A stretch of 64,000 nt of DNA from an uncultured Armatimonadota bacterium (GTDB taxonomy: Bacteria; Armatimonadota; Fimbriimonadia; Fimbriimonadales; Fimbriimonadaceae). Position numbers and translations under genes: made by a program. Below the pieces are notes generated by a model. That model made no database searches, was not told the DNA's origin, and saw nothing but the letters and a program-made list of their open reading frames with translations. Of the stretch, positions 49,507-53,194 are shown one piece after another (the stretch's first letter is position 1; each line of letters opens with the position of its first letter). The stretch lies in NCBI GenBank assembly GCA_903927345.1, contig CAIYMO010000030.1:20332-84331 (forward strand), given 5' to 3'.

Positions 49507-49581
49507 GGGCGGTTAGCTCAACGGTAGAGCGTCTCGTTTACACCGAGAGGGTTGGGGGTTCGAATCCCTCACCGCCCACCA
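49507..49581 (+). tRNA. tRNA-Val(UAC), CCA encoded
   Basis: GGGCGGTTAGCTCAACGGTAGAGCGTCTCGTTTACACCGAGAGGGTTGGGGGTTCGAATCCCTCACCGCCCACCA; loop TTTACAC. Confidence 0.97.
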
Positions 49582-49582
49582 C

Positions 49583-49906
49583 TTACTTTGTCGCGTTGAA
49601 GGCTGACACCGTTCCAGGATTGGGAGTTCCGGGTCGACGGTGCGCCAAATAAATTCGGTTCAAAGTTCCGAAATCCGCCAGGTCGACATCCGAGAAGTCA
49701 AGTCGTGCGAATTCCGCCACCCTTGCCGACCGCGCTGAGTTCTTTGCGTTGAGGTCCACCTTGGGAACCAGTGGATTAGATACTCCAGGATTCTTCTTCC
49801 AGGTGAAGCAACGGAACATCGGAGCGGCCCCTGCATCATATTGACTGGTTGGTGCGATCCCCAGGCACAACTCAATCGTGCTCATCAAACTACACGACGT
49901 GTACAT
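49583..49906 (-). CDS. Uncertain ORF, possibly a remnant
   Basis: 107-aa ORF only; no recognised motif. Confidence 0.2.
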   Translation of the reverse strand: MYTSCSLMSTIELCLGIAPTSQYDAGAAPMFRCFTWKKNPGVSNPLVPKVDLNAKNSARSARVAEFARLDFSDVDLADFGTLNRIYLAHRRPGTPNPGTVSAFNATK

Positions 49907-51474: not shown

Positions 51475-51768
51475 ATGAACGTCCTCTGTCCCAAGTGTGC
51501 TGAAGTCATGATGATCGTGGATCGCCAAGGGGTTCACATTGACTACTGCCCAAAGTGCCAAGGAGTCTTTCTCGATCGGGGCGAGCTTGAAAAGCTGATC
51601 CAGCTCTCGTTGCAACCTGCTCCCCAGTACCAACAACCGGTCTACCAGCAGCCGGTTTATCAACAGCCACCCCAACCGATGCGAAGAGACGATGACGACT
51701 ACGACTACAACTATAAGGGTCGCCGCCGACGTCGGAGTTTGTTGGGAGACATTTTCGACTTCGATTAA
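51475..51768 (+). CDS. zf-TFIIB domain protein
   Basis: MNVLCPKCAEVMMIVDRQGVHIDYCPKCQGVFLDRGELEKLI; Tyr/Gln-rich repeat YQQPVYQQPVYQQP. Confidence 0.9.
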   Translation: MNVLCPKCAEVMMIVDRQGVHIDYCPKCQGVFLDRGELEKLIQLSLQPAPQYQQPVYQQPVYQQPPQPMRRDDDDYDYNYKGRRRRRSLLGDIFDFD

Positions 51769-51772
51769 GCGA

Positions 51773-52300
51773 TCAATACTGGGTCTTCTCAAGCTTGAAA
51801 GTGAAGCTTCCCTGCACACCTGACTTGAACTCAGGAGTGTAAGCAAAGATGGACGCTTTGTACTCGCCGTTCGAGAGCGACTTGCAGAAGAACTTGAACC
51901 TCAGCTGATCGCTCGAACATTCCGTTCTCCCAGCCGAATCAATAAACACCGCCAACGCTCCTCTTCCACAAGAGACTCCCTTTGAATGGCCGTGAACTAC
52001 CTTTCGGTACTCCGGAGTTCCAAACTTGACGGAGGGCTGACTGAGGCTAAACTTCGCCAGCTGCACTCCCGGGTTCACACTGACATGAATCTTGATCCCT
52101 TGATCATAAAGTACGTCCGACCCCTTCTGGAACGTAAGAACATAAACATCCGCCTCGTCCTTCTTTCCGTCGCTCTCTGCAGAGTCGCGTTGCAACCTCT
52201 TCTGAACCCGGGCATGATCAAACACCACTGGTTTTCCAAACAGAATCCCTTCTAGCCGAGCCGGTTGGGTAACAAGAAGCACTGCGATACAATTCATCAC
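51773..52300 (-). CDS. Hypothetical protein, copy A of tandem pair
   Basis: Strongly similar to the 52516-53067 product (ILFGKPVVFDHA...PSVKFGTPEYRKVVHGHSKGVSCGRGA). Likely start at MNC, 52297. Confidence 0.75.
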   Translation of the reverse strand: MMNCIAVLLVTQPARLEGILFGKPVVFDHARVQKRLQRDSAESDGKKDEADVYVLTFQKGSDVLYDQGIKIHVSVNPGVQLAKFSLSQPSVKFGTPEYRKVVHGHSKGVSCGRGALAVFIDSAGRTECSSDQLRFKFFCKSLSNGEYKASIFAYTPEFKSGVQGSFTFKLEKTQY

Positions 52301-52376
52301 AGTGACTTTTCCCTTCTGCTCCGAGCCTCTCCTCAGTAGATTTACCCGGTTCCCTTAGTATCATTTTGTTGTTCAA

Positions 52377-52436
52377 GGGCGTTTTTCTCAGTGGTGGAGC
52401 ACTTCGTTCACACCGAAGGGGTCGTGGGCTCAAGTA
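52377..52436 (+). pseudogene. Truncated, mutated tRNA-Val(CAC) copy
   Basis: GGGCGTTTTTCTCAGTGGTGGAGCACTTCGTTCACACCGAAGGGGTCGTGGGCTCAAGT aligns with the tRNA at 53120 but ends in the T-loop; no 3' acceptor strand. Confidence 0.93.
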
Positions 52437-52511
52437 AGAAGAGACTTCGACGATAACCATAAGGGTCGCCGTCGCCGACGTTTGTTGGGAGACATCTTCG
52501 ACTTCGATTAA
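52437..52511 (+). pseudogene. 3' fragment of the zf-TFIIB gene
   Basis: ...ATAAGGGTCGCCGTCGCCGACGTTTGTTGGGAGACATCTTCGACTTCGATTAA matches the end of the gene at 51475-51768. Confidence 0.92.
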
Positions 52512-52515
52512 GTCG

Positions 52516-53040
52516 TCAATATCCGAGTTTCCCGAGCTTGAAAGTGAAGCTTCCCTGCACGCCTGACTTGAACTCAGAAGTGTAAGCAAAGATGGACGCT
52601 TTATATTCACCGTTCGCCAGAGGCTTGCAGAAGAACTTGAACCTCACCTGATCGCTCGCTGCCTCCGTTTTCCCCGCCGATTTAATAAATGCTACCATCG
52701 CGCCTCGTCCACAGGAAACTCCTTTCGAGTGACCGTGCATGACCTTGGAGTACTCCGGCGTTCCAAACTTGACTGAAGGCTGTGTGAGGCTCACCTTCGC
52801 CAACTTCACTCCCGGGTTCACGTTGACATGAAATTTGATCCCTTGATCGTAAAACATGTCGTCCCCCTTCTTGAAGGTAAGAATATAAACGTCCGCCTCG
52901 TCCTTCTTTCCGTCGCCCTCTGCCGAGGCGCGACCCGAAGTCTTTTGAACAACCGCGTGGTCAAACACAACCGGTTTCCCAAACAAAATCCCATCTAGCC
53001 GGGCCGGCTGGGTAACAAGAATGGCGGCGATACAATTCAT
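52516..53040 (-). CDS. Hypothetical protein, copy B of tandem pair
   Basis: MNCIAAILVTQPARLDGILFGKPVVFDHA...; same family as copy A; ORF extends to 53067. Confidence 0.75.
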   Translation of the reverse strand: MNCIAAILVTQPARLDGILFGKPVVFDHAVVQKTSGRASAEGDGKKDEADVYILTFKKGDDMFYDQGIKFHVNVNPGVKLAKVSLTQPSVKFGTPEYSKVMHGHSKGVSCGRGAMVAFIKSAGKTEAASDQVRFKFFCKPLANGEYKASIFAYTSEFKSGVQGSFTFKLGKLGY

Positions 53041-53119
53041 CAAACTAGTTTTTCCCTTCTGCCCCAAGCCTCTACTCCGTAGACTTGCTGGGTTCCCTTG
53101 GTATAATTTTGTTGTTCAA

Positions 53120-53194
53120 GGGCGGTTAGCTCAGTGGTAGAGCACTTCGTTCACACCGAAGGGGTCGTGGGTTCAAGTCCCGCACCGCCCACCA
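53120..53194 (+). tRNA. tRNA-Val(CAC), CCA encoded
   Basis: GGGCGGTTAGCTCAGTGGTAGAGCACTTCGTTCACACCGAAGGGGTCGTGGGTTCAAGTCCCGCACCGCCCACCA; loop TTCACAC; TATAAT box upstream. Confidence 0.97.

Follow-up and report, generated by a model that had tools for sequence, protein, structure and literature searches.

A tandem duplication with its joint in a tRNA-Val T-loop, shared by two sister species in opposite copy order

Tandem duplication by unequal crossing-over is documented, including the merodiploids that form during transformation (Johnston et al. 2013, PMC3784515). As in the locus described here, those duplications consist of head-to-tail copies made by recombination, and the copies stay substrates for further exchange. 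Incoming DNA can trigger them, which would also hold for the route proposed below. They extend over about 100-900 kb and are bordered by long repeats, whereas the present unit measures about 0.75 kb and its joint is without homology. Unlike them, the block reported here has been retained and is common to two species.

Homology-facilitated illegitimate recombination, reportedly described by de Vries and Wackernagel in 2002, anchors one end by homology and joins the other with little or none. A process of this kind would add donor DNA beside a resident copy, as is proposed for this locus. Elements that integrate at tRNA genes are also relevant, and they usually leave behind the 3' part of the tRNA. 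The same tRNA gene as here carries one in a relative (integrase, type III pair and tRNA direct repeat). In contrast to such elements, the duplication carries no integrase gene and shows no T-loop core at its zf (zinc-ribbon gene) end, and what it leaves behind is the 5' part of the tRNA. The locus may be regarded as a fresh case of known recombination processes, with the twist of a shared joint, a reversed order and a probable transfer between species.

Architecture of the repeat and its joint

The window analyzed is a stretch of 64,000 nucleotides from the source genome (G000), an uncultured Armatimonadota bacterium. Local self-alignment gave one continuous diagonal of about 740 bp relating 51697-52436 to 52443-53178 (score 833; best of 50 shuffles 28), and a separate repeat search returned a unit spacing of 743-746. 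The original prediction had claimed a tandem repeat of a zinc-ribbon 3' end, a hypothetical gene (Hyp) and tRNA-Val, with a continuous diagonal of this length as its test, and the alignment bears it out. Unit 1 (51683-52435) contains the final ~86 nt of a zinc-ribbon gene, zf-TFIIB (zf), Hyp A (174 aa, minus strand) and the first 59 nt of tRNA-Val(CAC). Its left end, at about 51683, falls at GAAGAGAC within the 3' end of the intact zf gene (51475-51768, plus strand; PF13453, E 3e-18), and its right end is 52435, inside the T-loop (GGGCTCAAGT). Unit 2 (52438-53178) is made up of a zf fragment, Hyp B and tRNA-Val to the matching point of the T-loop. The zf fragment (52438-52511, plus strand) is dead: it is 5'-truncated, differs from the intact tail at 9 of 74 aligned bases and has 9-nt and 3-nt deletions.

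The two units meet at an AA (52436-52437) between the T-loop and the zf fragment, in the sequence CAAGT-AA-GAAGAGAC at 52431-52445; the joint-spanning sequence is CAAGTAAGAA. Microhomology at the joint amounts to one base at most. The breakpoint in the T-loop had been predicted correctly, although the tail of zf in unit 2 begins at 52438, one base away from where the junction had been placed. The same duplication with an identical joint, CAAGT-AA-GAAGAGAC included, is present in the sister species G015 (Fimbriimonas sp. isolate D15.bin.35, JARXAE01). This second, independent assembly rules out an assembly artefact as the source of the joint. With two head-to-tail copies in one alignment and a single joint fusing a unit end to a unit start, the tandem duplication is confirmed as a real feature. 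The unit is barely large enough for the whole Hyp gene, the 5' region that lies beside the tRNA and the 3' region that abuts zf. Because the locus is so compact, unit ends inside the neighboring genes are to be expected, and the T-loop need not be special.

Hyp A (51773-52297, minus strand) has an N-terminal signal-like stretch. Hyp B (52516-53040, minus strand), its 174-aa paralogue, has a further open start, TTG at 53067, upstream. The two proteins are 80% identical. Direct comparison of A with B, as had been suggested, gave dS 0.64 and dN 0.12; the constraint was seen in the cross-species pairs, where dN/dS against the G015 counterpart is 0.15 for A and 0.195 for B. Both genes are under purifying selection (dN/dS 0.15-0.20 in these pairs), in agreement with the earlier claim that both protein copies were retained. 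That A and B have stayed distinct in G000 as well as in G015 suggests that the two proteins cannot simply replace each other.

The Hyp family is present in 13 of 113 genomes of the order, and several members have signal-like or lipoprotein-like N-termini. Profile searches of Pfam (curated cut-off), NCBIfam, PHROGs and PDB sequences gave no significant match to a known family, and a deeper alignment (A3) compared with the PDB produced chance matches alone (best E 0.25). The protein, which had not been recognized at the outset, is still uncharacterized after these searches. Structure prediction, also proposed earlier, yielded a poor model consisting mostly of strands with low confidence (mean pLDDT 52, 5 sequences). 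At the level of a guess from its sequence, Hyp is a putative secreted or cell-envelope protein. Carriage by phages or plasmids was considered and rejected: no relative occurs in viral contigs or plasmids, and there is no PHROG.

Unit 1 closes with a 3'-truncated relic of tRNA-Val(CAC) (52377-52435, plus strand) that ends in the T-loop. It is changed at 5 of 59 nt relative to the intact tRNA and lacks the 3' acceptor strand together with the 3' half of its T arm. The suggested check of 52377-52436 was run with ARAGORN, which gives no tRNA for the relic and reports here solely the intact tRNA-Val(CAC) (53120-53194, plus strand), the right anchor of the shared block. The predicted fold of the relic shows no cloverleaf. 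The intact tRNA has a sigma-70-like promoter-like site (TAGACT-16-TATAAT, 53080-53107, plus strand; a consensus match only), and the relic's counterpart stays below threshold in the scan that this site passes. The relic carries five changes in G000 and four in G015, with none in common and several at conserved tRNA positions. The earlier description of a dead duplicate tRNA is upheld by its changed bases, its missing 3' side and the lack of an ARAGORN call.

Copy order and divergence in the sister species

The tandem block is known from two genomes only, G000 and G015. In G015, slot 1 is occupied by the B-type gene and slot 2 by the A-type gene, which is the opposite of the order in G000. The swap is supported by 52 coding sites, compared with 4 that favor a positional match and 1 that is concerted (within-genome similarity); over the whole unit the counts are 54, 7 and 2. 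The node uniting the B pair has 96% bootstrap. The unit ends show no clear swap pattern, as is expected if the gene bodies alone changed place.

Background divergence was taken from four flanking or nearby genes, and on this basis the synonymous difference between G000 and G015 is saturated, at 0.78-0.82 in NIF3, pilin, DUF2339, amidase and zf codons 1-50 (0.82 for these codons alone). In zf codons 51-98 it is 0.145, and in the matching Hyp copies it is 0.23 and 0.31. The corresponding difference between A and B is 0.43-0.49. The drop relative to G015 begins inside zf, at about 51609-51628 (max-chi2 permutation P 2e-4); no comparable drop was found relative to G018. On the right, homology to G015 is lost just beyond the 3' end of tRNA-Val(CAC). 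The block thus shows the marks of a horizontally exchanged tract, namely divergence far under background and a detectable breakpoint. Constraint on silent sites is not the explanation of the low divergence, because Hyp is saturated against G018. Block divergence below the saturated species divergence points to a duplication younger than the species split and to sharing by horizontal recombination. On this reading, the tandem block arose after G000 and G015 had separated and probably moved by recombination, with zf and the tRNA gene as anchors.

The dead parts provide a separate estimate of age. This dead sequence, which comprises the relic tRNA and the zf fragment, shows 14/133 and 11/131 differences, where a joint of the same age as the A/B split would lead one to expect about 26% and 31% (P = 9e-6 and 7e-10). 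Its lower divergence means either that A and B had diverged before they were joined or that the ends were homogenized later. A and B were probably diverged alleles by the time they were placed in tandem; the low divergence of the dead parts could alternatively reflect gene conversion, with the living zf and tRNA as templates, and not a young joint. The event had been judged old from the divergence of the two proteins. This is not supported, as divergence in the relic tRNA and zf fragment is far smaller than that between A and B, and the whole block appears younger than the split of the two species that carry it. Synteny in relatives, which had been proposed for dating, did reveal the shared joint in G015, but the swapped order and the divergence drop speak against a plain vertical history. 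How far the proteins of tandem copies have diverged can be a poor guide to the age of a duplication, and the dead by-products of a joint, here a tRNA relic and a gene fragment, offer a useful second clock.

Candidate routes to the shared block

The best explanation, and one we consider likely, is that a Hyp unit was joined non-homologously, that the alleles involved had already diverged, and that the block was transferred between species and reordered by homologous recombination. The Hyp gene, flanked by pieces of both neighbors, would have been joined head-to-tail, T-loop of the tRNA to tail of zf-TFIIB, in a single end-joining event that used no homology. A related strain may, for example, have supplied DNA that was added beside the resident copy, which would have put the diverged A and B alleles in tandem. 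The block would have passed between the two species lineages by homologous recombination, with zf as the left anchor and the nearly invariant tRNA-Val as the right anchor. In one lineage, homologous recombination between the repeats would have converted A-B to B-A and kept the zf and tRNA ends and the joint. This reordering could have proceeded by looping out one unit via one flank and re-inserting it through the other, or by expansion of the array and then contraction. The surplus tRNA, without its 3' acceptor side, would have decayed independently in each species, and purifying selection would have maintained both Hyp copies. Against this explanation, a single-copy parent with A alone or B alone was not found among the relatives, and no circle, three-copy array or other intermediate was seen. 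If correct, it would make the locus a small, well-preserved tandem gene pair, possibly from already different alleles, that was moved between species with its order reversed, and a tRNA gene would have served as one recombination anchor of the moved block.

An origin related to integrases had also been put forward. According to the ORF list, Hyp is the sole gene in the repeat unit and no integrase gene is found there; the sequence of the joint in G000 and G015 shows no T-loop-like core at the left, or zf, end of the unit. When unit 2 is instead read as a circle inserted at the T-loop, however, the tRNA 5' part, with the T-loop, lies on both sides. In G018, a tyrosine integrase is located directly 3' of the same tRNA-Val gene. 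The apparent G018 island of ~15 kb (C3:233236-248401; L126, L127) lies between two tRNA-Val(CAC) copies and has a type III modification-restriction pair and a ~72-nt tRNA direct repeat ~15 kb away. A decayed tRNA-Val-like 5' part is found in G002 near a different tyrosine integrase (L102 1499-1580; 3-1067, minus strand). The sulfatase-like gene upstream of this part is the one that in G001 stands ahead of tRNA-Val(CAC), and no intact tRNA-Val(CAC) was detected in G002. Together, the G018 island and the G002 tRNA part near an integrase indicate that integration at the tRNA-Val gene does occur in the genus.

Acting in trans at the T-loop, a tyrosine integrase might have inserted a circle carrying the zf piece, Hyp and the tRNA 5' part; the resident tRNA would have been left without its 3' half, and the 5' half that arrived would have rebuilt a whole tRNA. 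The layout of the locus is formally identical to such an insertion, entry of the circle via either flank would yield both copy orders with one joint, and the G018 island and the decayed G002 tRNA part fit this origin as well. Nevertheless, we consider it unlikely. With no T-loop sequence at the left end, the joint in its present form is not the product of an ordinary att x att exchange, and the unit carries no integrase gene. In addition, the G018 repeat spans nearly the whole tRNA, so that the T-loop is not singled out, and homologous recombination accounts for the order change without an integrase. What stands of the earlier suggestion is the tyrosine integrase 3' of this tRNA in G018; the left end does not carry the T-loop copy. 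Extending the idea, Hyp and the adjoining tRNA 5' part might form a putative tiny integrase-dependent cassette, with one-gene circles excised and re-inserted at the T-loop in trans, which we regard as a long shot. Each insertion would then leave a 3'-truncated tRNA upstream, and the cassette would account for the two copy orders and perhaps also for the truncated 5' copies of tRNAs near tRNA-Val elsewhere in the genus.

A plain vertical history, which comes close to the earlier reading, is quite improbable. It would posit one ancestral duplication before G000 and G015 separated, after which A and B diverged slowly, the spare tRNA decayed and later gene conversion blurred the pattern; the common joint and the constraint on both Hyp copies agree with it. 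Differences within the block (0.15-0.31), and even between A and B (0.43-0.49), are, however, far under the saturated species divergence (0.78), the copy order is swapped, and the dead parts are too similar. Retention of the relic as a functional tRNA-derived 5' RNA, not dead at all, is very doubtful, given that the changes in the two relics all differ and several strike conserved tRNA positions, that the promoter match is weakened and that the predicted fold is not tRNA-like. In its favor, the 5' region of the relic doubles as the upstream region of Hyp A, and in other members of the genus functional tRNA-Val genes are likewise preceded by truncated 5' copies of a tRNA.

Hyp and tRNA-Val neighborhoods in relatives

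The Hyp gene occupies other places in relatives. In G018 it sits between NIF3 and zf, not between zf and tRNA (L044 / G018 C3:248458-249421), and in G008 it adjoins tRNA-Val(CAC) with no zf (L045 6693-7421). As read from these gene orders, Hyp has changed position in this neighborhood. The G008 arrangement, with Hyp beside tRNA-Val and no zf, raises the possibility that the Hyp-tRNA adjacency may be older. Duplication and random loss starting from the G018 order (NIF3-Hyp-zf-tRNA) was set aside, since about four copies and many losses would be needed.

The truncated tRNA 5' copies occur in three other members of the genus and consist of GGGCGGTTAGCTCAGTGGTAGAGC plus a TCCCGA-loop-TCGGGA hairpin, with no T arm. 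They adjoin, directly upstream, functional tRNA-Val(CAC) or tRNA-Val(GAC) genes. In G005 they form tandem arrays with periods of 95 and 84. Copies are located at L052 1216-1450 (plus strand) and in L072 (minus strand, three copies, period 84), and single ones near 1432 in L056 and near 1425 in L051. Rfam returned a sub-threshold tRNA match at most for these copies, and a literature search found nothing directly on T-loop tandem duplications or tandem truncated tRNAs in bacteria.

Elsewhere in the window, a phosphoesterase-like gene is represented by a C-terminal fragment of 107 aa (49583-49906, minus strand), which abuts tRNA-Val(TAC) at its 3' end (window 49507-49906). In G015, synteny to the amidase-tRNA side is lost where tRNA-Val(TAC) ends. 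The phosphoesterase-like gene is intact in G015 (832 aa; L043 7248-9746).
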